NCBI RefSeq assembly: GCF_018736065.1 | Contig: NZ_CP076128.1 | Coordinates: forward strand, 2,418,001-2,482,000 | From: Flammeovirga kamogawensis | GTDB lineage: Bacteria > Bacteroidota > Bacteroidia > Cytophagales > Flammeovirgaceae | DNA length: 64,000 nucleotides | Reading direction: 5' to 3' | Shown here: positions 49,263 to 63,688 of the stretch, in pieces | Layout: every line of letters starts with the position of its first letter | How positions within the stretch are numbered: the first letter of the stretch is position 1 | Program-made: the position numbers and the translations under genes | Notes under the pieces: model-generated | Told to the model about the DNA's origin: nothing | Seen by the model: only the letters and a program-made list of their open reading frames with translations | Database searches by the model: none

Positions 49263-51626
49263 TTACTTTACAATCAATTTAATTTTTTGAATACTATCTA
49301 CATATTCAACTGTAATAATATAAAGCCCTTTATTAAAGACACTTCTTGCTATTTGTGTTTTATTTGATATTGTTTGAGTAGAATAGATAGTTTTACCTTC
49401 CAAATCAAATACTCTTACTTGTGCACCTATAGTGTTAGCAGGATGATTAATAAATACATCTTCTTCTGTAACAGGGTTTGGATAAACTACTGTTTCTGTA
49501 AAGTTAGAAGTTAAAGACTCGGCAGATGTACGTCCATTAGAAGACGTTCCCATAATCTCTACATGTGCCCAACTTTCTTGTCCTTTAAAAGTAACATAAT
49601 ATTTACCGTCTTGCTTTGCAGGAAGATTATTCATCCATAAATTTGTTACATCTACTCCATTAATTGTAACAGATTGTGCCCCCCAAGAGTTGATATAATC
49701 AATATCTTCAGAAGTAACCCAACATTGTTCCTCTACACCATCATAAGAAAAATCTAATGTTATAGGCTGTGAAGTTTCACAACCTCCAGTTTCATCACCT
49801 TCTGTCACAGTAATCATTACTGCTGCATTAATTTGTGCGTTACTACTTTGAGCCGTAATTGTTGCTTGTCCTTTTGCAACAGCTACTACTTCTCCTGTTG
49901 AACTTACTGTAGCAATTGATGTGTTTGAAGACGACCACGTAATACTTTTATCGGTAGCATTTGCAGGTACTACTTCTGCTGATAATTGAGTTGTAGCATT
50001 CACTTTTAAAGTTGTTGCATTCGCTTGAAGATTTAAGCCTGAAACAGCAATATCATTACCACCAACTTTAGAAAAAGAAAACCAATTGATGTTGAAACCT
50101 CCAATGTTTGCTTTAATACCAATTTCATATTCACCAGCTGATAAAGCTATTGTATGTTCAACAGTTTCCCAGTTTTGCCATCCACCTGTAGAAGGTATTG
50201 CAACTGTACCTAAAACATTTGCACCTGCATTTGTATCAATTTGTAGTTCGTTACCCCCGTTTAAAGAAGCAATTCTATACGATACTTTATAATTGCCAGC
50301 TTCAGCTACAGAAATTTTGTAACTCATCCAATCTTCGTCATCAATGTAACCAATGTTAGACCCACCGTTATTATCTAAAGTAGCTTCTACTTGTATTCCA
50401 GACATTGCACAAAAATCTTCGCTTTCTATTTGAGCAGGAAGAGCTACAGCAGTACATTCTACAGGTCCGCCCTCTAATGGATTCCAGAAGTTACCTGTAA
50501 TTGTAAACATGTACAAAGCGTACAACGTAGTGTTAAAATAGCCACTTGGCGATTTATTTACTAAATAGTTATACGCTCCATCTATCTTATCCTGACCTGC
50601 TGGTGCATACATATAAGATGTTGCAAATGCTCCAGAGAAAGTTGCACTGTTATTTGTTCCGTAAGATGATCCATCCATATTGTAACCATCTACAATACTT
50701 CCTAAGCCACCTTTTGCTTCTGTAAATTGGTAACTTTGATTTATGTAATCACCTGCTTCAGAAACACCGAACCAAGCATAATCTGTTGCCATTCTCCAAG
50801 GAGTACGAGCCGCATCGTAATGATATTTTGTTCCACCTTGAAAATATCCACTAGCATCACCAGAAAAAGATCCACCCGAAGTACACCAGTCTGGAACTAA
50901 TCCATAAGAAGGGTTTAAAGTTGATTTTATGTTAGCTAGTATCTCATAACATTTTGCTACCACTCCATTCCAATAGCCTTGATCGTTAGTATATTCTCCA
51001 AATACTCTAAAGTAAGCAGGTGTAAAATAAGATGGGTTAGTAATGTTATCGCCACCCCAACCTGGGCCAGGTCTAGGCACAAGCGTTGAAGAGATTTCTT
51101 TGTCTTTAATAATACCAATCATGTCTCTGGCTAAAGCTCCATAATTTAGAGCTCCTCCGCTACCCCAATTTGCTTCTGCAACTATTAGAGCAAAAGCATA
51201 ATCAAATTCTGCATCGGCAGCACCACCTGTGCATCGGCCATCACCGTAGCCACAATCTGTAGCTACTTCCCAACAACCTTGGATTTTCCAATCCATTACA
51301 CCATCCGCATTTTTAAAACGGTTATAGTACTTTGTTAGACCATCAAAAACATCTCTGTCTTTTGCATAAGCAGAAAGAAGCATACCGTATGCAATACCTT
51401 CAGAAACAGATTGGCTAGGGTTATCGAATCTTACTCTAAATTCTCCTGTTTCGTTACAATACTCTAAATAACCGTTTTTCCAGTTATTATAAGAAGCCAT
51501 TGCTGCACTGTTGCTTCTTGCACTTGGCATATTACCATGTGGATAGTTTACTGAGTTTAGCGACTGACCAAGTAGTAAATGGCTCGTCAAAATCATAGTA
51601 AATAAAAAAATAATTCTTTTCATCAT
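49263..51626 (-). CDS. GH8 glycoside hydrolase with CBM6, Ig-like, CBM64-like and T9SS modules
   Basis: The 787-residue protein has a signal ending LLLGQ, a GH8 catalytic domain (about 25-390) with QSVSEGIAYGMLLSAYA (general acid Glu) and DAEFDYAFALIVAE, then a CBM6 (about 400-520, ending GGFNINWFSFS), a BIG2 Ig-like domain (about 530-605, SITWSSSNTSIATVS), a CBM64-like module (about 615-690, with FSYDGVEEQCWVTS, INSWG, NLWMN and SWAHVEI), and a T9SS sorting domain. GH8 enzymes cut beta-1,4-glucans, mixed-linkage glucan or chitosan; the CBM64-like module points to crystalline cellulose. Its promoter shares the TACGAC repeat with the GH5 gene. Confidence 0.92.
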   Translation of the reverse strand: MMKRIIFLFTMILTSHLLLGQSLNSVNYPHGNMPSARSNSAAMASYNNWKNGYLEYCNETGEFRVRFDNPSQSVSEGIAYGMLLSAYAKDRDVFDGLTKYYNRFKNADGVMDWKIQGCWEVATDCGYGDGRCTGGAADAEFDYAFALIVAEANWGSGGALNYGALARDMIGIIKDKEISSTLVPRPGPGWGGDNITNPSYFTPAYFRVFGEYTNDQGYWNGVVAKCYEILANIKSTLNPSYGLVPDWCTSGGSFSGDASGYFQGGTKYHYDAARTPWRMATDYAWFGVSEAGDYINQSYQFTEAKGGLGSIVDGYNMDGSSYGTNNSATFSGAFATSYMYAPAGQDKIDGAYNYLVNKSPSGYFNTTLYALYMFTITGNFWNPLEGGPVECTAVALPAQIESEDFCAMSGIQVEATLDNNGGSNIGYIDDEDWMSYKISVAEAGNYKVSYRIASLNGGNELQIDTNAGANVLGTVAIPSTGGWQNWETVEHTIALSAGEYEIGIKANIGGFNINWFSFSKVGGNDIAVSGLNLQANATTLKVNATTQLSAEVVPANATDKSITWSSSNTSIATVSSTGEVVAVAKGQATITAQSSNAQINAAVMITVTEGDETGGCETSQPITLDFSYDGVEEQCWVTSEDIDYINSWGAQSVTINGVDVTNLWMNNLPAKQDGKYYVTFKGQESWAHVEIMGTSSNGRTSAESLTSNFTETVVYPNPVTEEDVFINHPANTIGAQVRVFDLEGKTIYSTQTISNKTQIARSVFNKGLYIITVEYVDSIQKIKLIVK

Positions 51627-51657: not shown

Positions 51658-51665
51658 CAAATATT
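51658..51665 (-). promoter_or_regulatory. -7-like element of the GH8 gene
   Basis: The minus strand reads AATATTTG (with TA just before, TAATATTTG), close to TAnnTTTG, 31 bp before the ATG. The identical octamer is found at the same place relative to the operator in front of the GH5 gene. Confidence 0.6.
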
Positions 51666-51697
51666 AGCTATTGGATCTTGAGTTCTATTTTTTTAGG

Positions 51698-51714
51698 TAC
51701 GACAACCCTACGAC
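51698..51714 (-). promoter_or_regulatory. TACGAC-N5-TACGAC direct repeat upstream of the GH8 gene
   Basis: TACGAC at 51698-51703 and 51709-51714 (GTCGTA on the coding strand), an 11-bp period, so both copies face one side of DNA. It ends exactly 32 nt before the -7-like element. The GH5 gene has the same arrangement. Confidence 0.7.
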
Positions 51715-51960
51715 TTCCACTGTTATTGATGTAGACAAAAACTCCCTTCATATAAAAAACATTTCGTTTTCTAAGATGAAGTAAACACCCAACCTGTTTA
51801 TTTTTAACAAGTTAACTATACGTTAAGAATACTATTTAGAATAAGACAGATAAACGAAAGTAGACTGTTTAATAAACATAGATTTGAAACTAGACTCTGC
51901 TGATATCTCAATAATAAAAACCTTACTCAGTGTATTATTTAAACGGTAGTAATGTATTTA

Positions 51961-52000
51961 AACAAAGAAACTTCTCTCCCACATAGCAGAAGAGAAGTTC
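51961..52000 (-). terminator. terminator of the GH5 gene
   Basis: AACTTCTCT (51969-51977) pairs with AGAGAAGTT (51991-51999), close in sequence to the GH8 terminator, with a T-rich stretch after it on the minus strand. It begins 24 bp after the stop. Confidence 0.8.
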
Positions 52001-52023
52001 TATTCCAATTTACAATACAATAA

Positions 52024-54945
52024 TTATTGCACAACTAATTTTATCTTTTCAACCTTATCTAAATACTGAATAGTAATAATATACAATCCTTTATTGAAGG
52101 TCTTTTTATCTATTTTTGTTTCTTCTGATGTGACAATAGAAGAATAAACATTCTTTCCCTCTACATCAAAAATATTTATTTCTGCTCCTAGAGATTCAAT
52201 AGGATGACTAATATGAACACTACCTGTAGAAATAGGGTTTGGATATACCTTAGAAGAAACCTTATTGAGTTCACTATTCAAACTTTCTCTCTGATTAGAA
52301 TTACCTGCTCCTTCAATTTCGATATGCGCCCAAGATTCAGCCCCCTTAAAAGTGATGTAATATTTCCCATTCTCTTTTGCAGGAAAGTTATTCACCCAAA
52401 GGTTTGTAATATCAACCCCATTAATAGTAACAGATTGCGTACCCCAAGAGTTAATATAATTAATAGTACCAGATACTACCCAACATTGTTCTTCTACACC
52501 ATCATATGAGAAATTTAAAGTAATTGGTGTTGCACTTTCACAACCTCCTACTATTTCTTCATTTTCCACGGTAATTGTACATAATGCATTCACCTGTGCA
52601 TTACTACTTTGTGCTGTAATAATAACATTCCCTTCTGCTAATGTAATTACTTCTCCTGTCGAAGAAACAGTAGCAACCGCTGTATTAGAAGACGTCCAAG
52701 TCACCGACTTATCAGATGCATTTGCAGGTAAAACAGCTGCTGATAATTGTAATGACTGATTTACTGATAAGTTTGCTGTTGCTTGTGATAAAGATAATCC
52801 TGTAACTGCTACAGTCTCACTCGTTGTTTTAGAAAATTGAAGTGCTTTAATGTTAAAACCACCTTTTTCAAATACAAACTTTACTTCTTTAGTACCTGTA
52901 GTTACAGACGCTGTTCCGCTTTCTTGAATTGAAAATGCTTCCCATCCTCCTGTGCTACTTACCTGTTTAGTTCCTGTCACATTTACACCGTCAATCTCAA
53001 TATGATATTCTCCTCCAGTACTATTTGCTGCTAAAGAAGTAGAAATCACGTATTCTCCGCCTTCTGTAAAATTCACGGTATATTTTAACCACTCATTATC
53101 CTTTGTCTCTCCAATATAATAGGCACCATTTCCACCAATTTGATAGATATCTACCGCATCGTTTCTAAAAGTCCAATTAACATTCCATATGGCTCCATCT
53201 CCATAATCACCAACTGCTCCTTGTTCAAAGTAAGCGTAGCCTTGTTTTCCTAAATCATAATTTACAGCTGTAATATTATCCGAAGGAATGTTTACCATTT
53301 CATAAGCCTTAGTTACTGTTGTCCCTACTCCTCTTGTTGTGGCATCAATAACAGAATAATTATATACACAGTTATCTATTCTTGTGTTAGTAGCCCATTG
53401 CATTAAAGCAGCTTTTGCATTGGCTACAGATGGTTTTGCTCCTTCACCATTCCAATATTTCAATACATCTTGCATTCCTTGTGGCATATCAACTTTTAAT
53501 AAACCTTGAATTTGATTTATCTTTTTTAAAGGCCAGAAAGAGTAACCAATATTATTCGAGTTAAGTAATTCAAAATTCTCACTATACCATTGGTTAGAGT
53601 TTTCTCCAGTTTCTCCACACCATATAGGCGTATTTGTTGAGTTTCTAAGGTCTATAAATTCTTGGATTGATCCCTGATCTACATCTGACCAATATTTATG
53701 AAAAGCATACACCATATTATTATCAAAGGCAGGAGTCAAACCTCTAAAATCATTTGCCCACCAGTTACCTTCTATAAATACAATATGATTACTATCTACT
53801 TGTCTTAACTCCCATAAAATAGATGTATAAAGGTCAGATAGCATTTCATTCTGATCGCCTAATTCCCAATTTGTCTCATTTAATAAATCGTAGCCTGCAA
53901 TCCACTCTTCATCAGCATATCTAGATGCAATTTCTCTCCATAAATGTACTGTTTTTGATCTATTCTCTCCGCTTTCCCATAACGATGGATAGGCTGGATT
54001 ATAATCTGATATTGGCTGATCCTCACCTTGACCACCTGGAGCTGCATGTAAATCTAAAATTAAATAAACTTGATGTTGCTTACACCAAGCTAACAAATTA
54101 TCGATAAGGTTATAACCTCTAGAAATAACCGTACTTTGCCCCTCCACAGGTTCCTCTTGAATAGGTAACGTGAATAAATTATAGTGCAATGGCACACGAA
54201 TACTATTAAAACCCCATTCTTTTATTTGAATAACATCTGCTTCCGTTACCATATTGTCTAACCAAGCATCATAAAATTCTTGTTTGTTTTGTTCGCCAAT
54301 TACATCAATAATTCCTTGCTCAATTTCCCATTGTGGACCAAAAGGAACTTCCATTATATAGCCTTCTTGTACCATCCAACCATCAAGGTTTATAGCATTT
54401 AATAGAATATTAGTTCCATTTCCATCTACAATGTTTTTTCCAGAAGTATGTAAGAAATTATTTTGAGGTTGTACATTTCCTGTAATACTAAACCAATTGA
54501 TGTTAAACCCACCAATGTTTGCTTTAATACCAATTTCATACTCTCCTTGAGGAAGTGAAATATCATGAGTTATTGTTTGCCAAGTTTGCCATCCACCTGT
54601 TGCAGGTACAGTAATAGTACCTAAAACAGTTGCGCCTTTATCTTTGTCAATCTGAATTTCGTTACCTCCATTAGCAGAAGCCACTCTGTAAGATAGCGTA
54701 TAAGTACCACTTGCAGGTACACTGATATTGTAACTCATCCAATCGTCATCGTCAATATAACCTATATTAAGGTTACCCGATTCGTCTTGTGTTTGCTCGG
54801 TTTGTATTCCCGACATTCCACAGTAATTTTCACTCTCAATTTGAGATGGAATTACTATAGTGTTACAGTTATTAATAGTTAGTATTTCTCCTACTACAAT
54901 CTGGTTTGCAAGTAATAGAAGTAAAATAGAAAGAGCTTGTTTCAT
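52024..54945 (-). CDS. GH5 endoglucanase with CBM6 modules, Ig-like, CBM64-like and T9SS modules
   Basis: The 973-residue protein starts with a signal (LLLANQIVVGE), an N-terminal CBM6 (about 25-155, ending GGFNINWFSITG), a GH5 catalytic domain (about 160-510) with LILDLHAAPGGQG, the acid/base Glu in YDLLNETNW and the nucleophile Glu in WCGETGEN, then a second CBM6/35-like module (about 560-690, GGFNIKALQFSK), a BIG2 domain (about 695-775), a CBM64-like module (about 785-865, with FSYDGVEEQCWVVS, NLWVN, SWAHIEI) and a T9SS sorting domain. GH5 of this type cuts beta-1,4-glucans. The tail modules and terminator are closely related to those of the GH8 gene, and the two enzymes probably work together on cellulose. 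Confidence 0.93.
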   Translation of the reverse strand: MKQALSILLLLLANQIVVGEILTINNCNTIVIPSQIESENYCGMSGIQTEQTQDESGNLNIGYIDDDDWMSYNISVPASGTYTLSYRVASANGGNEIQIDKDKGATVLGTITVPATGGWQTWQTITHDISLPQGEYEIGIKANIGGFNINWFSITGNVQPQNNFLHTSGKNIVDGNGTNILLNAINLDGWMVQEGYIMEVPFGPQWEIEQGIIDVIGEQNKQEFYDAWLDNMVTEADVIQIKEWGFNSIRVPLHYNLFTLPIQEEPVEGQSTVISRGYNLIDNLLAWCKQHQVYLILDLHAAPGGQGEDQPISDYNPAYPSLWESGENRSKTVHLWREIASRYADEEWIAGYDLLNETNWELGDQNEMLSDLYTSILWELRQVDSNHIVFIEGNWWANDFRGLTPAFDNNMVYAFHKYWSDVDQGSIQEFIDLRNSTNTPIWCGETGENSNQWYSENFELLNSNNIGYSFWPLKKINQIQGLLKVDMPQGMQDVLKYWNGEGAKPSVANAKAALMQWATNTRIDNCVYNYSVIDATTRGVGTTVTKAYEMVNIPSDNITAVNYDLGKQGYAYFEQGAVGDYGDGAIWNVNWTFRNDAVDIYQIGGNGAYYIGETKDNEWLKYTVNFTEGGEYVISTSLAANSTGGEYHIEIDGVNVTGTKQVSSTGGWEAFSIQESGTASVTTGTKEVKFVFEKGGFNIKALQFSKTTSETVAVTGLSLSQATANLSVNQSLQLSAAVLPANASDKSVTWTSSNTAVATVSSTGEVITLAEGNVIITAQSSNAQVNALCTITVENEEIVGGCESATPITLNFSYDGVEEQCWVVSGTINYINSWGTQSVTINGVDITNLWVNNFPAKENGKYYITFKGAESWAHIEIEGAGNSNQRESLNSELNKVSSKVYPNPISTGSVHISHPIESLGAEINIFDVEGKNVYSSIVTSEETKIDKKTFNKGLYIITIQYLDKVEKIKLVVQ

Positions 54946-54974
54946 AATCTAAAAATTAGTGTTGATAATACACA

Positions 54975-54982
54975 AATATTCA
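54975..54982 (-). promoter_or_regulatory. -7-like element of the GH5 gene
   Basis: AATATTTG on the minus strand, 29 bp before the ATG, identical to the octamer before the GH8 gene. Confidence 0.6.
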
Positions 54983-55014
54983 TTAAAGCATCAAAAAAGC
55001 CATATTTTTCACTA

Positions 55015-55031
55015 CGACAAACCTACGACAA
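55015..55031 (-). promoter_or_regulatory. TACGAC-N5-TACGAC direct repeat upstream of the GH5 gene
   Basis: Part of a tandem repeat of CTACGACAAAC: TACGAC at 55015-55020 and 55026-55031. The spacing to the -7-like element is 32 nt, identical to the GH8 promoter. Confidence 0.72.
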
Positions 55032-55250: not shown

Positions 55251-56951
55251 ATGATTAAAATTAGAACTTCCTTTACATTATTATTTAGCACTGTAATTCT
55301 ATTTTTATTAATTATCTTAATCATCTTTTTAAGATTACTTGATAACAGAAAAGAGTTTGGCAGTATGCAATTTCAACGTCAAAATTCTTTTGCATTAAGT
55401 GATTATTTAATTGATAGAAATAATGAACTGACTCGGCTTTGTACCAATTCTATTTATAGTAAAAACGAAATATGGCAAGAGACCTATCAAAAGTTTTTAA
55501 ATTATGATGATCCCGCTTTTCTATTTCTTAAAAGTGATTTTAAAGAAGACAGCCTACAAGCAAAAGGCTTTACTACTCAAGAAATTCAATTGATTAATAA
55601 TGCCCTTTTACTTTCTAATAAAGCTATTCAGATAGAAAAAAAGGCTTTAGCATTACCTACTCAAGGTACTGCATTGGCTTTACTTCAGCAGACAGAATAT
55701 TTAGATGCTAAGAACAATGCAAATGCACTTTTACTTTCTTTGGAAAAAACAATAGATTCTCGGACTACAAAAACATGGAACGATAGTAAAGAAGAAGGCT
55801 TCACTCTTTTTTATACTTTATTGATACTTTTACTTTTTGTACTGCTGTTTTCTACAGCCTCTTATTACTTAATTAGATTAAGGTTAAAAAGACAAGAACG
55901 CATTGACAAAAAGTTTAAAGAAAGCGTAGTCGAATTACAATCTACAAAAGATAATTTAGTAGAAAGTGACCATCGATTTACATTGGCTACCCAAGGAACG
56001 GGTATTTTAATTTGGGAATATGATTTAATAAGTAAGCAAATCAATTGGTTTCCTAAAAACAGTAAGCTGTTAGACTTTCCTTCTGAAAAATTGACGCCTT
56101 CTATAACATCAATTCAAGAACAAATTCATAAAGGAGATCTCGATCAATTTAATCAACAGTTTAAAAATTGTATTGAAAATGGTAGTGCTATAAGTATTGA
56201 TGTACGTTGTTATAATGCTATAAAAGAGCTAAAGTGGTATAACTTTAGAAGTGCATCAATAAAAAAAAGCAAACAAATTGTTGGTACTTTTTCTGATATA
56301 AACGAGCAAATGAAGCAAGAAGAAAAAGTAATTAACGCTATATTAGAAACAGAGGATAAAGAGAGAAGTAGAATTGCAAGAGATATACATGATAGTCTCC
56401 AACAAACCATGTCTACCTCTTTACTTAATCTTGAAAAAGTGCGAGTATCTAATGAAATCTCTGATAGGGAGCTCGTAAATAAATTTGATATTGGCTACAA
56501 CTACCTGAAAAAAGCCATTCAAGAAAGTAGAACTTTGGCTTATAATCTTATGCCTAAAGTGATCCATCAAAATGGAATTTCTCCAGCAATTCAAGCTCTA
56601 ATAAGTGCATTAGAAGGATCTACTACTACTCAAATTATTTTTTACGACAATCTTAATGAGGAACGATTAAAACTTTCTGTAGAAATGACTTTATACAGAA
56701 TTGTACAAGAGAGTATCAATAATGTCATCAAATACTCTGAAGCAGAAAAATGCACTATACAATTATTAAAATATAGCGATTTACTCGTTTTAACTATAGA
56801 AGATAATGGTGTTGGGTTTGACTTATCAACAACAAAAAATACCTTTGGCTTAAATAGTTTAAAAACAAGAGCTGAGGCGATTGGAGCTTATCTTCAAATA
56901 TCATCAGTTAAAAATAAAGGAACCGAAATAGTCTTAGAATTGGCTTTATAA
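55251..56951 (+). CDS. membrane histidine kinase (HisKA_3/NarX-like)
   Basis: The 566-residue protein has two membrane helices (about 7-30 and 185-207) flanking an external region, a PAS-like domain (about 235-350, TGILIWEYDLISKQINWFPK), then HisKA_3 with the phospho-acceptor His near residue 380 in RIARDIHDSLQQ and a HATPase_c domain with VQESINNVIKYSEA and IEDNGVGFDLS. It is followed after 2 nt by its response regulator, so the two form a co-translated pair. It is divergent from the GH5 gene and may sense cellulose breakdown products or an envelope signal; the ligand is unknown. Confidence 0.92.
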   Translation: MIKIRTSFTLLFSTVILFLLIILIIFLRLLDNRKEFGSMQFQRQNSFALSDYLIDRNNELTRLCTNSIYSKNEIWQETYQKFLNYDDPAFLFLKSDFKEDSLQAKGFTTQEIQLINNALLLSNKAIQIEKKALALPTQGTALALLQQTEYLDAKNNANALLLSLEKTIDSRTTKTWNDSKEEGFTLFYTLLILLLFVLLFSTASYYLIRLRLKRQERIDKKFKESVVELQSTKDNLVESDHRFTLATQGTGILIWEYDLISKQINWFPKNSKLLDFPSEKLTPSITSIQEQIHKGDLDQFNQQFKNCIENGSAISIDVRCYNAIKELKWYNFRSASIKKSKQIVGTFSDINEQMKQEEKVINAILETEDKERSRIARDIHDSLQQTMSTSLLNLEKVRVSNEISDRELVNKFDIGYNYLKKAIQESRTLAYNLMPKVIHQNGISPAIQALISALEGSTTTQIIFYDNLNEERLKLSVEMTLYRIVQESINNVIKYSEAEKCTIQLLKYSDLLVLTIEDNGVGFDLSTTKNTFGLNSLKTRAEAIGAYLQISSVKNKGTEIVLELAL

Positions 56952-56953
56952 TT

Positions 56954-57610
56954 ATGAATACCCCTATAAAAGTACTTTTAGTTGATGATCATAACATGAT
57001 CCGAGAGGGATTAAAATCTTTCTTAGACAAAGAACATTTTGATATTATCGGCGAAGCAGTGAATGGTGTTGAGGCACTTCTTTTATTAGAAAAACACAAA
57101 GTTGATGTTGTAATTACAGACATTATGATGCCTGAAAAAGACGGTATAACATTGTGTAAAGAAATTACGGCACAATATCCTTCTATTCATGTTCTCGCAC
57201 TTACAATGATGAACGAAAGTTATAACATCAAAAAAATGCTAAATGCAGGTGCTAAAGGATATATTCTTAAAGATTGTACACAAGATGAATTACGAAAGGC
57301 CATTACATCTGTAGCCGCTGGAGAAAATTATTACTCTTCTGAGGTTACTTCAATTATTATGCAAGGGCTTTCTTCTCAGCCTGCTGTAAAGAAAAGGGTT
57401 TTGACAGAAATACCTTTAACGGAAAGAGAAATGGAGGTTTTACACCTTATTTGTAAGGAATTTTCAAATATAGAAATTGGAGAAAAGTTATTTATTTCTC
57501 CGCGAACAGTAGAAACACACAAAAGAAATTTAGTTGAAAAAACAGGTGCTAAAAATGTGGCAGGATTAGTTTTATATGCTATTGAAAGAAATCTATTTAC
57601 AGACCTTTAA
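56954..57610 (+). CDS. NarL/LuxR-type response regulator
   Basis: The 218-residue protein has a receiver domain with Asp11-Asp12, phospho-acceptor Asp56 in VVITDIMMPEKDG and the conserved Lys in AKGYILKDCT, then a GerE/LuxR helix-turn-helix (LTEREMEVLHLICKEFSNIEIGEKL and SPRTVETHKRNL). It starts 2 nt after the kinase stop. NarL-type proteins often bind direct or inverted repeats of short sites, so it is a second candidate, with the Y_Y_Y regulator, for the TACGAC repeats before GH8 and GH5. Confidence 0.94.
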   Translation: MNTPIKVLLVDDHNMIREGLKSFLDKEHFDIIGEAVNGVEALLLLEKHKVDVVITDIMMPEKDGITLCKEITAQYPSIHVLALTMMNESYNIKKMLNAGAKGYILKDCTQDELRKAITSVAAGENYYSSEVTSIIMQGLSSQPAVKKRVLTEIPLTEREMEVLHLICKEFSNIEIGEKLFISPRTVETHKRNLVEKTGAKNVAGLVLYAIERNLFTDL

Positions 57611-57735
57611 AATCTTCTAAGGGATTCCCGTATTTACAAGAACTCTGCTTTTTACGTACAATTATGGCCTTTAAAACCGCCACCTTTGATTCACATTAGA
57701 GGCATATAATTTTCAATCAATAAAGTAAAATTCAG

Positions 57736-57900
57736 ATGAAAAATTTAAGATTAATAGGTAAAATCACAGTGCTATTTTTAACAATAGGCTTTTTCTCATG
57801 CAATAATGATAACAACGAATTAGGTCCGATAGAAACTCCAGAACATCCAATTGCAGATCCTGGCCCTGTACAACCTACACCACCGGTTATCAACAATTAA
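57736..57900 (+). CDS. 54-residue proline-rich lipoprotein
   Basis: ATG at 57736 and TAA at 57898-57900 encode a 54-residue protein with a lipoprotein signal (LTIGFFSCNND) and a short Pro-rich tail (PIADPGPVQPTPP). A clean terminator follows. No family is recognised. It lies 125 bp after the response regulator and might be part of its regulon. Confidence 0.65.
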   Translation: MKNLRLIGKITVLFLTIGFFSCNNDNNELGPIETPEHPIADPGPVQPTPPVINN

Positions 57901-57929
57901 GTTACTTTTACTTAGCTAATTCTAATCCT

Positions 57930-57959
57930 GTCCTCATGGTTTATCATGAGGACTTTTTT
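57930..57959 (+). terminator. terminator of the small Pro-rich lipoprotein gene
   Basis: GTCCTCATG (57930-57938) pairs with CATGAGGAC (57945-57953), loop 6 nt, then six T. Confidence 0.88.
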
Positions 57960-58041
57960 ATGTTCCAACTTCTCTTTCTATGTGTTTCCCGTAGTTTTCT
58001 AATATGGTTAATTCCCTCTCAAATTTGAGTGGTTGATAGAA

Positions 58042-58049
58042 TAAATTTG
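58042..58049 (+). promoter_or_regulatory. -7-like element of the sulfatase gene
   Basis: TAAATTTG matches TAnnTTTG, 32 bp before the ATG. A TTTG at 58024-58027 is close but only 14 bp upstream. Confidence 0.5.
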
Positions 58050-58081
58050 CTGTATATCAATTACAAAAAGAATACAACAAT

Positions 58082-59602
58082 ATGAAAAATCTATTAATTA
58101 CTACCGCATTTTGGTGTATATCATTACTCAGTTTTGCACAACAAAAACCAAATATCGTTGTCATCATGACCGATGATGTGGCCCCTCAAGATATCTCTGC
58201 TTACCATAGAGGATTAGGTGCCGTTAGTACACCAAATATAGACCAAATAGCAGATGAAGGATTATTAATTAATGATTATTACGCACAACAAAGCTGTACC
58301 GCTGGTCGGTCTTCATTTATAACAGGACAATATCCAATTAGAACAGGACTTACTTCGGTTGGACAGCCAGGGTCTAAAATTGGTTTACAAGCAGAAGATG
58401 TTACGCTTGCTGAAATGCTAAAAGACCAAGGATATGCCACAGCTCATTTTGGAAAAAGTCATTTAGGAGATAGAAATGAACACCTTCCAACTGCACATGG
58501 TTTTGATGAGTTTTATGGTTTCTTATATCATTTAAATATGATGGAAATGCCAGAACAACCAGAGTTTCCAAAAGATAAAGACTTTGTAGGTAGACCAAGA
58601 AACGTGATTTACAGTAAAGCAACAACTATTGATGATCCAACTATTGACCCAAGATGGGGCAGAGTAGGTAAAATTACTGTAGAAGATAAAGGCGAGTTAG
58701 GTGCATTACGCCAAGAAACATTTGATGATGAAGTTTTAGAAATTTCTCAAAAATGGATGAAAAAGAAACAAAAAGAAGATGCTCCTTTCTTCTTATGGTT
58801 TAACCCTTCTAGAATGCACCAAGAAATTTATGTTTCAGAAAAATGGCAAGGTAAAAGTGGGCATAGCACCTATGCTGATGGACTTCTACATTTAGATTAC
58901 TTGGTTGGTGAGTTATTACAAACGCTAGAAGATATAGGTGAAAAAGAGAATACAATTGTCTTATTTACTTCTGACAATGGAGTAAACCTTGCCCACTGGC
59001 CTAGTGCTGGAACGGCATCTTTTAGAGGAGAAAAAGGAACTACTTGGGATGGAGGCTTCCGTGTTCCAATGTTAGTAATGTGGCCTGAACATATACCTGC
59101 AGGAAAGTGGAGTGGAGAGTTAATGACATCAGAAGATTGGGTACCAACATTAATGGCTGCCATTGGTGAACCTAACATTAAAGAGGAGCTTCTTGAAGGG
59201 AAAAAAATAAATAATAAGGAGTACAAAGTACATCTTGATGGGTACAACCAACTTGATTTAATTACTAAAAATGGGAAATCAAACAGAAGGGAATTCTTCT
59301 ACTTTGCAGAAAATGATTTACAAGCAATCCGTGTAGACCATTGGAAAATACATTTAGCAATTAAAGATGAATGGCTAAAAAGTGCAGAAAAATTACCTGC
59401 TGGTATGATTATCAACTTAAAGCTGGACCCTTACGAACGTACACCAGAAACGCCCGGTCATTTTCTATGGATGAAAGAAAAAACTTGGATACTGCCAACA
59501 ATTGTTCCTCCATTAAAACAATTTGGTAAAAGCATGAAAGAGTTTCCTCCTCGTCAGAAAGGAACAGGGATTGGGGCTGGAGCCATTATGAATCAGAAAT
59601 AA
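58082..59602 (+). CDS. secreted sulfatase (S1 family)
   Basis: The 506-residue protein has a signal (SLLSFAQQ) and a sulfatase domain with NIVVIMTDDVAPQD (metal-binding Asp pair), AQQSCTAGRSSFITGQYP, where Cys in CTAGR fits the formylglycine-forming C-x-(P/A)-x-R motif, and VLFTSDNGVNLAHWP (further metal ligands). It needs a maturase (FGE or anSME) to be active, encoded elsewhere. Substrate may be a sulfated polysaccharide, common in algal cell walls, but cannot be told from sequence. It lies before the DUF1254 gene by 40 bp, suggesting one operon. There is no T9SS tail. Confidence 0.92.
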   Translation: MKNLLITTAFWCISLLSFAQQKPNIVVIMTDDVAPQDISAYHRGLGAVSTPNIDQIADEGLLINDYYAQQSCTAGRSSFITGQYPIRTGLTSVGQPGSKIGLQAEDVTLAEMLKDQGYATAHFGKSHLGDRNEHLPTAHGFDEFYGFLYHLNMMEMPEQPEFPKDKDFVGRPRNVIYSKATTIDDPTIDPRWGRVGKITVEDKGELGALRQETFDDEVLEISQKWMKKKQKEDAPFFLWFNPSRMHQEIYVSEKWQGKSGHSTYADGLLHLDYLVGELLQTLEDIGEKENTIVLFTSDNGVNLAHWPSAGTASFRGEKGTTWDGGFRVPMLVMWPEHIPAGKWSGELMTSEDWVPTLMAAIGEPNIKEELLEGKKINNKEYKVHLDGYNQLDLITKNGKSNRREFFYFAENDLQAIRVDHWKIHLAIKDEWLKSAEKLPAGMIINLKLDPYERTPETPGHFLWMKEKTWILPTIVPPLKQFGKSMKEFPPRQKGTGIGAGAIMNQK

Positions 59603-59642
59603 TAATTATTTGCTATATCAATACTATAAACATCTAGTTTGT

Positions 59643-61070
59643 ATGAAAACAAGAACATTATATACCCTACCGATACTTTTCATTTCACTATTTTTTGGAT
59701 GTAATACCTCGCAAAATAGTCCAGAAAAAGTATCCGAAAATTTATCCTTAGAAGAACAAGTAATATATCAGCGTGCTTTTGAAGCAATAGTATGGGGAAT
59801 GCCAGCCACTGCTATTTATAGATTACGTGAAGGTTTTTTAGAGTTACCAGAAGTTGATAATAATGTAATTGTTGCCTACTCAAAACCAGCATTATCAAAA
59901 CATAAAGCAATTACGGCCAATACAGCAACTCCTTATATTACTGCTTATACCGATTTACGTGAAGGACCTGTGGTATTAGATATTCCTGCAGTAAGCAATA
60001 AAGCTAGTTTATATGGTCAAGTTGTAGATGCATGGCAATCAACAATTGCAGGTGTTGGTCCATCAGGAGCTGATAAAGGTAAAGGAGGAAAATACCTTTT
60101 TCTACCTCCTAATTATGATGGTGATGTTCCTCAAGGATATTTCGTTGTTCAATCAACAACTTATCGTCTTGCTTTAGTATTTCGATCAATAAGAGGAAAA
60201 AATGCTACAGATAAGGATGCCTATGATTATACACAACAAATGAAGATGTATTATTTATCAGAAGGTGAACAACCTACAAAATTTGTTGATGGTATTCCTT
60301 TTCCCTTGCAATCATTACCTCGTTATGATTACCATGCACTTGAAGACATTCATGCCATATTTAGTGTTGAACCAGTTTTAGAGAGAGACAAAGTAATGAT
60401 GGGGATGTTGGCTACAATAGGTATTAAACCAAATAAACCATTTAACCCTGACAAAAAGACAAAGGCAATATTTAATAAAGCTGCTAAAGATGCTTATGAT
60501 TACATGCACCAATTGGTAAAAAAACATCATGAAGATGGGTTATATTGGGAAGATCGACAATGGAGTTTTGTTATGCGTACAGATGATGCTGATGGATTCG
60601 ATTTTGTTTCTGATACACAAATTGAAATTGATAAAAGAGCTGCTGCTTGGAGTTTTTTCACCTTATACCCTCAAAAATTAGGGAAGCACCCTGCTACGGT
60701 TTATTTAGCTCCAACTGCAGATGCTAACGGTAATACTTTAGAAGCTGGAAAGCTTTACAAAATCAATGTTCCTAAAAATATACCTGCAAAACAGTTTTGG
60801 TCCATTACCGTATATGACGATTCAACCTGGGCATTTATTAATAATCCACTTGGACGTTCTGGGCTTGGTCAATTTAATTTACCAGATATGGAAGTAAATC
60901 TAGATGGTAGTATTGACATATATGTTGGTCCTGATGCTCCAAAAGGAGTTGTATCAAACTGGATACCAACATCTGGTAAAAAACCATATATCTGGCTAAG
61001 GTTATACGGCCCAAAAGATACATTTTGGGAAAAGTCATTTGTTATGCCAGATGTAGAGTTGGTGCAGTAA
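59643..61070 (+). CDS. DUF1254/DUF1214 domain lipoprotein
   Basis: The ATG at 59643 opens MKTRTLYTLPILFISLFFGC, a lipoprotein signal; an upstream TTG at 59610 is less likely. The 475-residue protein has the DUF1254 N-terminal part (VWGMPATAIYRLREG, TANTATPYITAYTDLREGP, VDAWQS) and DUF1214 C-terminal part (FWSITVYDDSTWAFIN, DIYVGPDAPKG). The fold is widespread, with unknown function. It follows the sulfatase gene by 40 bp on the same strand. It is a relative of the convergent protein at 61229. Confidence 0.88.
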   Translation: MKTRTLYTLPILFISLFFGCNTSQNSPEKVSENLSLEEQVIYQRAFEAIVWGMPATAIYRLREGFLELPEVDNNVIVAYSKPALSKHKAITANTATPYITAYTDLREGPVVLDIPAVSNKASLYGQVVDAWQSTIAGVGPSGADKGKGGKYLFLPPNYDGDVPQGYFVVQSTTYRLALVFRSIRGKNATDKDAYDYTQQMKMYYLSEGEQPTKFVDGIPFPLQSLPRYDYHALEDIHAIFSVEPVLERDKVMMGMLATIGIKPNKPFNPDKKTKAIFNKAAKDAYDYMHQLVKKHHEDGLYWEDRQWSFVMRTDDADGFDFVSDTQIEIDKRAAAWSFFTLYPQKLGKHPATVYLAPTADANGNTLEAGKLYKINVPKNIPAKQFWSITVYDDSTWAFINNPLGRSGLGQFNLPDMEVNLDGSIDIYVGPDAPKGVVSNWIPTSGKKPYIWLRLYGPKDTFWEKSFVMPDVELVQ

Positions 61071-61156
61071 TAATGCTATAGTTTATATATTTTATTTAAA
61101 ATATAAATTACCACAACTCATTAAAAATAAAGAGATTAATCATATTAATTGATAAA

Positions 61157-61193
61157 CAAAAAGAGCACGACCATTTATTTGATCGTGCTCTTA
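61157..61193. terminator. terminator between the two convergent DUF1254 genes
   Basis: AAGAGCACGA (61161-61170) pairs with TCGTGCTCTT (61183-61192); A-runs on the left make it a good minus-strand terminator for the second gene. Confidence 0.75.
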
Positions 61194-61228
61194 ATTATAT
61201 ATTTAAAATCTGATATATACCGTTGATA

Positions 61229-62659
61229 TTATTTATTATCAACTACTTTTTTTATACCAGGCATAGTCCATGTTTTATTTAAAACCTCTTCTTTTGGCCA
61301 ATACATTCTGAATGTCAACTCAAAATCTACCCCCTCTTTTGTTGAAGGTAACCAATTCTTTTCATGCCCTTTAGGAGCATCTTTTTGAATATAAATATCT
61401 AATGATCCATCTTTATTGTAGACCATATCTTTTTTATCTCCAAGATTGTATCTATCAATTGAATTTTCTACTAAAAATCCAGTTTTATCATACATTGTAA
61501 TTGACCAAAAGCCTTCTACAGGAGGTAATTTATCTGCAGCAAAATGAAGAATATATTTATTCGAACCATTTAATAAATTGCCGTCAACATCAACTGCCGT
61601 ATTTGGATAAACTGCATCTTCTCCTAAATTAGCACCAAAACCTATTTTAGTAACATAAGCTCTAAAAGCATAATTAGTACCGTATTTACCTAAACCAGTT
61701 GTTGTTACAAACCAACCGTTTTGTAAACTTTCTGCTTTTGGTCTTGCCGTAATTTGTTTAAAAATAGCCTGTGCTTTTGCAGGAATTTCCTGAATTGTAG
61801 CTTGCTCTTCAGCTGTAAATTGAGATAAATCAAATGTGCCGCCAGCAGTAATTCCAACTTCTTTAAGTTGTGTAATAAAATCTGTATCTGCTGCTAAAGG
61901 AGGGTTAGAAACCATTAATGCCATCATCTTATTAAAATAATCTGTAACATTAAGATTGTCTACAACTTGCATTGGCACAAAATTATTTTCCTCTTTAAAA
62001 TTTCCTTCTGGAACTTTGTAATTTTTATTATTTCGTTCAGATAATGGACGGACAATTATTTTATTTGCAAAGTTTTTTACTTCTTTTTTACCGTCTTTAT
62101 CGTCAGTTACTTGAACTCTACCTAATAACCAGTTTAAATTCGTTTCCGATTTAATTATTGTAACATCCTTAGGTAAGTCTCCGGTATAATTTGGCCCAAC
62201 TAAAACTATATTTAACTCTCCTTGTCCAGTTGTTCTAGAACCTAAAGTAGAAATTACATCTGTATAGGCATTTAAAACAGGAATAAGGTAATATCGTTTT
62301 GTTGCTGGAATTTGAATAAATAAGGGTTCTTCAGATAAATCTGCATAAACTATATTATAATATGTATCTAAATTAGGCCTTACAACTCCTTTAAAATCAG
62401 CTTTAGGAAAAGGATATAAACATGCCAATTGGTTTATTGGTGCTTTGCCTTTAAAATGATTAGATGTTACAATGTTGGTTGATACCTTAAATGTTTCACC
62501 CATTGTCAATAGTGGGTAACCATAAAAATAGGCCTGTGTAAGCAATTCTATTTTCTGATCTACACTTTTATTAGTAGTATGTTGGTTATCCTGAGCCATT
62601 GATTTTGTAATAAAACTTGATAAAAGGAGTGTGATTAAAAAGGTTAATTTATTTTTCAT
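61229..62659 (-). CDS. secreted DUF1254/DUF1214 domain protein
   Basis: The 476-residue protein has a signal ending in TKSMAQ, then DUF1254 (AYFYGYPLLTMGETFK, VRPNLDTYYNIVYADLSEEP, TKRYYLIPVLNAYTDV) and DUF1214 (GFWSITMYDKTGFLVEN, DIYIQKDAPKG). Function of the fold is unknown. It is a diverged paralogue of the convergent lipoprotein. Between it and the upstream AraC gene lies a pair of ATCAGATTAT repeats, 21 bp apart, likely a regulator site. Confidence 0.88.
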   Translation of the reverse strand: MKNKLTFLITLLLSSFITKSMAQDNQHTTNKSVDQKIELLTQAYFYGYPLLTMGETFKVSTNIVTSNHFKGKAPINQLACLYPFPKADFKGVVRPNLDTYYNIVYADLSEEPLFIQIPATKRYYLIPVLNAYTDVISTLGSRTTGQGELNIVLVGPNYTGDLPKDVTIIKSETNLNWLLGRVQVTDDKDGKKEVKNFANKIIVRPLSERNNKNYKVPEGNFKEENNFVPMQVVDNLNVTDYFNKMMALMVSNPPLAADTDFITQLKEVGITAGGTFDLSQFTAEEQATIQEIPAKAQAIFKQITARPKAESLQNGWFVTTTGLGKYGTNYAFRAYVTKIGFGANLGEDAVYPNTAVDVDGNLLNGSNKYILHFAADKLPPVEGFWSITMYDKTGFLVENSIDRYNLGDKKDMVYNKDGSLDIYIQKDAPKGHEKNWLPSTKEGVDFELTFRMYWPKEEVLNKTWTMPGIKKVVDNK

Positions 62660-62761: not shown

Positions 62762-63688
62762 TTAAGTTCTAAACTGCAGTTGGAATTTTTTAGGAGTAAT
62801 ATCAAATTCTTTTTTAAATAAAGATGAAAAATGACTCATACTAGAAAAGCCTAAGTCTGCAGAAATCATAAAGATGGATTTATCTCCCTTCATTAATGCT
62901 TTTTTTGCTTGTTCTAAACGTACTTGTTGTTGAAATTGATAAACGGGTAACCCAAATGCTTTTTTAAATTGAGATCTGAGACTACTAACACTAATTCCAC
63001 ATTCTTTTGCTAGAAAATCTATTTCTAACGGTATACCTTCCGTTTCAGAAATCATATACCTGGCCTTCATTAATAATTTAATATTTAATGAATTCCCCTC
63101 TTCTTCTTTTATCTTTTCTCTCTGAGATAAACTTTCAATTAATAAATGAAAAATATAGAAGCTACAAGCAAACAATAATTCTTGTTTATAAAGAGAATGT
63201 TGAATCTCAAACATTCTATAGAAAGACCCCTTCATTAATGGTGTCATTTCTTCAAAAACAGTATATACTTGTTCTGGGTTACATAAAGATTTTAAAGAAG
63301 GTGCTCTTTCTATTAACTTATAAAAGTAGTTATACTCTACTCTTAACATTACAAGTTGGATTCTTCTGTTAACTGATAACTCCCAAGCTAGATTTTCTTT
63401 ATTATTAGAAAGTAAAACACCATTTAATGCTTCATTAATTCTTCCTCCAAGAAATATACTAGAGGCATCTCCAAAAATTATTGGAAGGTATTTATCTTCA
63501 TCTTCAAAAATAAAAGGTTCTCCTGTTAGCTTTTGATGCAAAAAGATATCTATTCTAATAAACTTAGTTCTAGAAGTAAGCTCATAAGCCTCTATAAAGC
63601 CATTGCCCAATTCATTATCAAACTTAAGAACAGTTTCATCTACCTCACCTTGAAGGGTCTGGTTCCAATAATGTAATAATTTTTCCAT
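62762..63688 (-). CDS. AraC-family transcriptional regulator
   Basis: The 308-residue protein has an N-terminal sensor-like part (about 200 residues) and a C-terminal AraC domain: LAKECGISVSSLRSQFKKAFG, SIFMISADLGFSSMSHFSSLF and KKEFDITPKKFQ. It lies directly upstream of the DUF1254 gene on the same strand, with the ATCAGATTAT pair between them. It is the likely controller of that gene. Confidence 0.9.
   Translation of the reverse strand: MEKLLHYWNQTLQGEVDETVLKFDNELGNGFIEAYELTSRTKFIRIDIFLHQKLTGEPFIFEDEDKYLPIIFGDASSIFLGGRINEALNGVLLSNNKENLAWELSVNRRIQLVMLRVEYNYFYKLIERAPSLKSLCNPEQVYTVFEEMTPLMKGSFYRMFEIQHSLYKQELLFACSFYIFHLLIESLSQREKIKEEEGNSLNIKLLMKARYMISETEGIPLEIDFLAKECGISVSSLRSQFKKAFGLPVYQFQQQVRLEQAKKALMKGDKSIFMISADLGFSSMSHFSSLFKKEFDITPKKFQLQFRT

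Follow-up and report, generated by a model that had tools for sequence, protein, structure and literature searches.

Results

Paired half-sites upstream of the GH8 and GH5 genes

In a 64,000-nucleotide stretch of the Flammeovirga kamogawensis genome (NZ_CP076128.1, positions 2,418,001 to 2,482,000; hereafter the window), two minus-strand genes for secreted cellulases, of glycoside hydrolase (GH) families 8 and 5, are each preceded on their coding strand by the same tandem site, GTCGTA-N5-GTCGTA, a candidate operator of two half-sites with an 11-bp period. Both the GH8 gene (49263-51626) and the GH5 gene (52024-54945) encode enzymes with CBM6, Big_2 and CBM64 domains and a type IX secretion system (T9SS) tail (Pfam, NCBIfam). 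The GH8 site, GTCGTA-GGGTT-GTCGTA (TACGACAACCCTACGAC, 51698-51714, minus strand), is followed by a 32-nt spacer (51666-51697) and the octamer AATATTTG (51658-51665), and the GH5 site, GTCGTA-GGTTT-GTCGTA (TACGACAAACCTACGAC, 55013-55029, minus strand), by a spacer of the same length (54981-55012) and the same octamer (54973-54980). With one mismatch to TAnnTTTG, the -7 consensus of Bacteroidota promoters given in PMC7366714, the octamer may be regarded as a candidate -7-like promoter element. It lies 31 bp from the ATG of GH8 and 27 bp from that of GH5, and ACACTAAT stands before the ATG in both.

This arrangement had been noticed in an earlier reading of the window (the original prediction), which located the GH8 site correctly and the GH5 site, at 55015-55031, two positions off. 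The exact 32 nt that it reported between paired site and octamer holds at both promoters, and no further exact pair of TACGAC, the site as read on the forward strand, is present in the window, as it had stated; its octamer-to-ATG distance of 29-31 bp compares with the 31 and 27 bp measured here. That the promoters otherwise differ was put slightly too strongly, because 15/32 positions agree between the two spacers, a value reached by 61 of 20,000 shuffles, beside an identity of 23/65 in the stretch upstream of the sites. An 8-base identical run at equal offset behind both sites arose in 44 of 20,000 mononucleotide shuffles.

Exact pairs in the genome and in related genomes

In all 6,968,008 bases of the genome the exact pair is found only at these two places in the window; the backwards control is not found at all, and the frequency of GTCGTA in the window would predict about 0.14 pairs genome-wide. 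When up to two mismatches are allowed, the window holds 3 sites against 1.08 expected, a number reached by 8 of 100 shuffles. Genome-wide there are six one-mismatch sites (L003-L008), among which only L008 is correctly oriented in front of a gene, that of GH65; L006 lies 9 bp before an ATG in the opposite orientation. Two mismatches give 117 matches versus 349 for the backwards control.

For comparison we used 18 genomes of the family and nine genomes of the genus Flammeovirga including our own (G000), with F. aprica as G004. The sister genome G006 carries the same two exact sites before the same two genes, the GH8 site being the same and the GH5 site identical, and a third exact pair before its GH65 gene. 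In F. aprica, whose GH5 orthologue is 81% identical, the promoter reads GTCGTA-AAAGT-GTCGTA-N32-AATATTTG: 12/12 half-site bases, the octamer and the length of the N32 spacer are kept, with a different N5 and with the N32 identical at 14/32 positions. The claim that the fixed arrangement argues for function is supported in that the arrangement looks constrained, being kept in F. aprica despite diverged spacers. The GH5 orthologue of G003 (80%) has a relaxed pair only, GTAGTA-ATAAT-GTTGTA, which lies 238 bp upstream of the first ATG and lacks the octamer. A GH8 orthologue was found in G006 only (98%), the other matches in the family genomes being at 28-31%. In G005 and G007-G010 there is neither an exact pair nor a GH5 match above 43%, and around the distant GH5 homologues (L098-L105) pairs are present, none of them seen upstream of the GH5 gene by eye. 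A search of the genome_contigs collection, which may exclude our own genome and its near relatives, with the operator and promoter pattern returned two stretches, one from F. aprica and one from a planctomycete.

With 7 sites in 4 of the 18 family genomes, the exact pair is too narrow to serve as a genus-wide cellulase marker, and one of the seven (L031, G003) falls inside a short open reading frame (ORF) just under the 100-aa limit.

Relaxed pairs and a three-repeat array

Leaving the third base of each half-site free (GTNGTA-N5-GTNGTA) gives 18 sites in our own genome. Classed by ORFs of at least 90 aa and by a downstream gene of at least 120 aa within 700 bp, 12 of the 18 are inside ORFs, 2 are without a close downstream gene, and 4 are in promoter position and right orientation, 84-314 bp before GH8, GH5, a SusC gene and GH65. 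The genome has about 46 SusC genes over the curated cut-off; none lies within 700 bp downstream of the other relaxed pairs. In 593 upstream regions, drawn from 67 stretches mostly around SusR-type genes (L092, the F. aprica GH5 stretch, and L093, that of G003, having been chosen for GH5 instead), the relaxed pair in gene orientation was found 8 times at spacing 5, representing about five independent loci, and 0-3 times at each of the other spacings from 0 to 19. We use 'SusR-type' for an architecture and not for orthology to the Bacteroides SusR (BT3705).

The other eight genus genomes contain 127 relaxed pairs, from which 8 were left out (four each from G005 and G010) and duplicates merged, leaving 114 distinct sites. 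Of these, 77 are coding, 28 have a gene within the next 800 bp (counting L031, in spite of its short ORF) and 9 fall in neither class. Fifteen of the 28 upstream sites precede genes labelled glycan, a raw share, with labels assigned, not blind, by Pfam or by likeness to genes already so labelled. One site (L354) was counted as glycan considering that the second gene behind it encodes a SusC-type receptor (Pfam), with a SusD-like ORF next to it by eye. Behind a relaxed pair of G008 there is a 2304-aa secreted protein (L353:3101-10015) with PKD, CBM_3 and cytochrome c domains and a T9SS tail.

The SusC promoter has a longer form of the site. In 7/7 aligned species it forms a block in 11-bp register, roughly NNNGTAATAAT-GTNGTATTARA-AGTGTAAAAAW-GTR, in which the third base of the second half-site varies and GT.GTA is constant. 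The three-repeat form is also found at GH65 (G000, G006), at a GH5 of G003 and at a second SusC operon (G004, G007, G008, G009). Merging our own 18 relaxed pairs with the 114, the GH5 site shared by G000 and G006 counting once, gives 131 distinct sites, 18 of them upstream of glycan genes and 113 others, mostly coding; an in-phase third GTA occurs at 10/18 of the former and 0/113 of the latter, the ten sites amounting to four independent loci. Orthologous sites are not independent. At the glycan-upstream sites a third GTA is absent from offsets 20-24 and 26-30 and found once in 18 at offset 31. TTTG at N29-N38 follows 11/18 glycan-upstream sites versus 1/113 others, a contrast that, like that in A/T content, partly reflects composition because the comparison sites are mostly coding. 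The aligned upstream regions of GH65 (G003, G004), GH5b and SusR_A showed no common block by eye among the parts listed.

The leader of SusC (L095, about 597-911, and six other species) holds a second conserved block around TATGACGTCA, downstream of the repeat array, with the palindrome TGACGTCA in G004 and G007-G009 and ATACGACGTCG in G000 and G006.

Regulators at the locus and at the glucan locus

Directly after GH8 lies P0003 (46105-49074, minus strand), a SusR-type regulator with Reg_prop and Y_Y_Y domains and a C-terminal helix-turn-helix (HTH) domain (Pfam, hhalign) and a candidate reader of the site. Its best full-length matches in our own genome are the two SusR-type proteins of a glucan locus with the order SusC-SusD-GH65-GH3-SusR_A-GH5-GH5-SusR_B, to which the SusC and GH65 genes with a relaxed pair in promoter position belong. 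In both P0003 and SusR_A the Reg_prop propeller and Y_Y_Y score over the Pfam cut-off, and no receiver or AraC domain was found in either (Pfam). The C-terminal HTH of SusR_A is a GerE domain (1.8e-9, Pfam); that of P0003 gives only a weak Sigma70_r4_2 match below the Pfam cut-off, and the aligned C-terminus of the P0003 family matches the GerE domain of response regulators with an hhalign probability of 93.9 (E 1.6e-7). Of the 16 matches to a P0003 C-terminal query in our own genome, 10 have open frames over 880 aa. An orthologue of P0003 is present in G006 (95%), the best matches in the other seven genus genomes being at about 30-31%, and SusR_A-like proteins are found in all nine, so they are present wherever GH5 occurs. 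As would be expected of an operator for such a regulator, the sites precede SusC/SusD or glycoside hydrolase genes that have a SusR-type gene in their vicinity; the exception is the F. aprica GH5 site, with no SusR-type gene within its 20-kb stretch.

Divergent from GH5 are genes for a histidine kinase, a NarL-type response regulator (56954-57610, plus strand; Pfam) and a sulfatase. This block (55251-59602) recurs in G004, G005 and G007-G010, and the cellulase genes seem to have been added next to it, the block being the older, because its other species lack GH8 and mostly lack GH5.

Discussion

We consider it probable, with ample room for doubt, that the paired GTCGTA serves a SusR-type membrane regulator, either P0003 or its paralogue SusR_A or both, as an activator operator. 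The basis is the observed sequence of the site, its position, its conservation and its association with SusR-type loci; from these we infer binding, activation and regulation, sensing and its ligand, and which of P0003 and SusR_A acts. The reader would be a one-component protein combining a Reg_prop propeller, Y_Y_Y, a membrane helix and a GerE-like HTH, and by analogy its propeller domain might sense glucan fragments in the periplasm. Two HTH domains would then occupy neighbouring half-sites on the same DNA face, one turn or 11 bp apart, placing the bound regulator just upstream of the promoter, with the -7-like AATATTTG a fixed 32 nt downstream, where it might help RNA polymerase once glucan fragments are sensed. 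On the available evidence P0003 and SusR_A are inseparable as the reader, and we favour a reader of the SusR type.

A number of observations weigh against this reading. With one mismatch allowed, spacing 5 gives 7 sites, no excess over the 5-28 at other spacings, and, counted over whole genomes, the relaxed pair is outnumbered by its backwards control (18 versus 26 in our own genome, 145 versus 292 in the nine). Thirteen of the 28 upstream sites in the other eight genomes precede genes without a glycan label, for example that of an AraC-type regulator (L252). A relaxed pair with a similar 30-bp continuation occurs at G000:C2:1134567-1134583 (L361) and G006:C2:371006-371022 (L307); the G000 site has no gene of at least 120 aa closely downstream, and a SusC-type gene lies about 1.9 kb off on the other side. 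The window sites before GH8 and GH5 have two repeats, the third being absent, and in the SusC promoters of G000 and G006 TTTG is missing where it would be expected. A comparison of HTH domains alone places other SusR groups nearer to P0003 than those of the glucan locus. F. aprica and G003 lack P0003, which is not the sole reader, given that the GH5 site is kept in F. aprica without an orthologue of it; as P0003 is confined to G000 and G006, F. aprica and G003 must use another reader for GH5. The distribution of SusR_A does not discriminate either, because SusR_A-like proteins are in all nine genomes, and the SusC stretches of G005 and G010 have no pair despite them.

The original prediction had proposed one activator, perhaps the Y_Y_Y regulator of the window or the NarL-type response regulator. 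The Y_Y_Y side of this proposal survives in the form of the SusR type, with the relaxed motif before glycan genes beside such regulators, though not in the form of the window protein as single reader, in view of the F. aprica GH5 site. GerE domains are able to bind tandem sites, and the NarL-type gene adjoins GH5 in G000 and G006, lies about 6 kb from GH5 in F. aprica and has no orthologue that we found in G003, which likewise lacks an exact pair before its GH5. Nevertheless, orthologues of 71-74% identity with near-identical recognition helices are present in G004, G005 and G007-G010, and in five of these genomes, all but G004, they occur without an exact pair and without a GH5 match above 43%; all six stretches around the histidine kinase, response regulator and sulfatase genes (L355-L360) are free of GTNGTA pairs. 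This distribution, together with the conservation of the recognition helix, disfavours the NarL-type regulator, and we regard it as very improbable that it reads the pair.

Alternatively, the reader may be encoded elsewhere, as an extracytoplasmic function (ECF) sigma factor, an AraC-type hybrid two-component system, a Crp-type or some other regulator, the link to SusR-type genes being incidental. The F. aprica site, kept with no SusR-type gene found in 20 kb, would fit this, as would the single relaxed site L354, which has such a hybrid system of AraC type in the locus behind it, and according to the review PMC10766802 the cellulase genes of Cytophaga hutchinsonii are under ECF control. However, the three-repeat form sits in the promoters of the SusR_A-bearing locus, and in 60 further SusR-type 20-kb stretches (L165-L224) the sole upstream exact relaxed pair is that of a SusR_A stretch (L191), so we hold a distant reader to be unlikely. 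Less likely still is that one promoter was copied from the other together with the shared modules, the likeness reflecting recent common origin and telling little of a regulator. Copying may account for part of the likeness, because GH8 and GH5 have their CBM6, Big_2, CBM64 and T9SS modules in common and share the spacer identity given above, along with ACACTAAT; the low identity upstream of the sites speaks against it, as does the F. aprica GH5 promoter, which keeps half-sites, octamer and spacing while the remaining bases changed, and a copied origin would in any case be compatible with function.

If the SusR-type reader favoured here is correct, the arrangement of its operator deserves comparison with known ones. 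PhoB-type tandem operators also have an 11-bp period, placing two half-sites before the promoter at a distance of one helical turn. They belong to another protein family, however, and no PhoB-type regulator is encoded beside the sites (Pfam). For Bacteroides, Ravcheev et al. (2013, PMC3878776) predict SusR-like motifs in which the direct repeats stand 67 or 77 bp from each other, and motifs of hybrid two-component systems (HTCS) with direct repeats at an average distance of 21 bp, read by an AraC-type HTH. Like the SusR-like regulons described there, ours has direct repeats before SusC/SusD and glycoside hydrolase genes, and those sites too are attributed to large membrane regulators carrying an HTH at the C-terminus, as proposed here; unlike them, it has two or three copies in an 11-bp period, a comparison by spacing and not by half-site sequence. 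No repeats at 67 or 77 bp came to light, the period being 11 bp and distant repeats not having been searched systematically. The likeness to the HTCS motifs is that of direct repeats before polysaccharide utilisation genes (PMC3878776), the difference being 11 instead of 21 bp and regulators, P0003 and SusR_A, without receiver or AraC domain. With the ECF system of C. hutchinsonii (PMC10766802) it would share a role in governing the cellulose genes of a member of Bacteroidota; a sigma factor acts there, and a tandem site in front of a -7-like element would act here. Among the titles listed from the openly licensed PMC literature, none was recognisable as that of a paper on this repeat. The array would be a new variant because the Bacteroides SusR motifs are predicted 67 or 77 bp apart; with a reader of the SusR type, it is a different arrangement for apparently the same kind of regulator.

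A wider extension can be put forward only tentatively, the balance of probability being somewhat against it: that Flammeovirga SusR-type regulators read 11-bp-phased NNNGTA arrays, linking scattered glucan loci as one regulon. With the same reservation, two copies would serve for secreted cellulases and three for SusC, GH65 and the second SusC operon, the third base being free. The cellulose regulon of the original prediction is to be qualified in any case: the exact site precedes two genes only in the genome, and the wider set, with SusC, GH65, GH5 and GH8, is one of glycan genes and not of T9SS cellulases alone. If true, this would be an operator grammar unlike the long-spaced repeats predicted for Bacteroides SusR, with membrane-anchored regulators able to pack side by side on DNA. 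SusR-type regulators are numerous here, and PMC3878776, in the parts considered, offers site predictions only. Being short, kept between species, helix-phased and at a fixed distance from its promoter, the operator is directly testable at the bench, and it would link secreted cellulases without an adjoining SusC/SusD pair to a glucan locus elsewhere on the chromosome.

Further along the window, two convergent genes with DUF1254 and DUF1214 domains (59610-62659) adjoin an AraC-type regulator gene (62762-63688).

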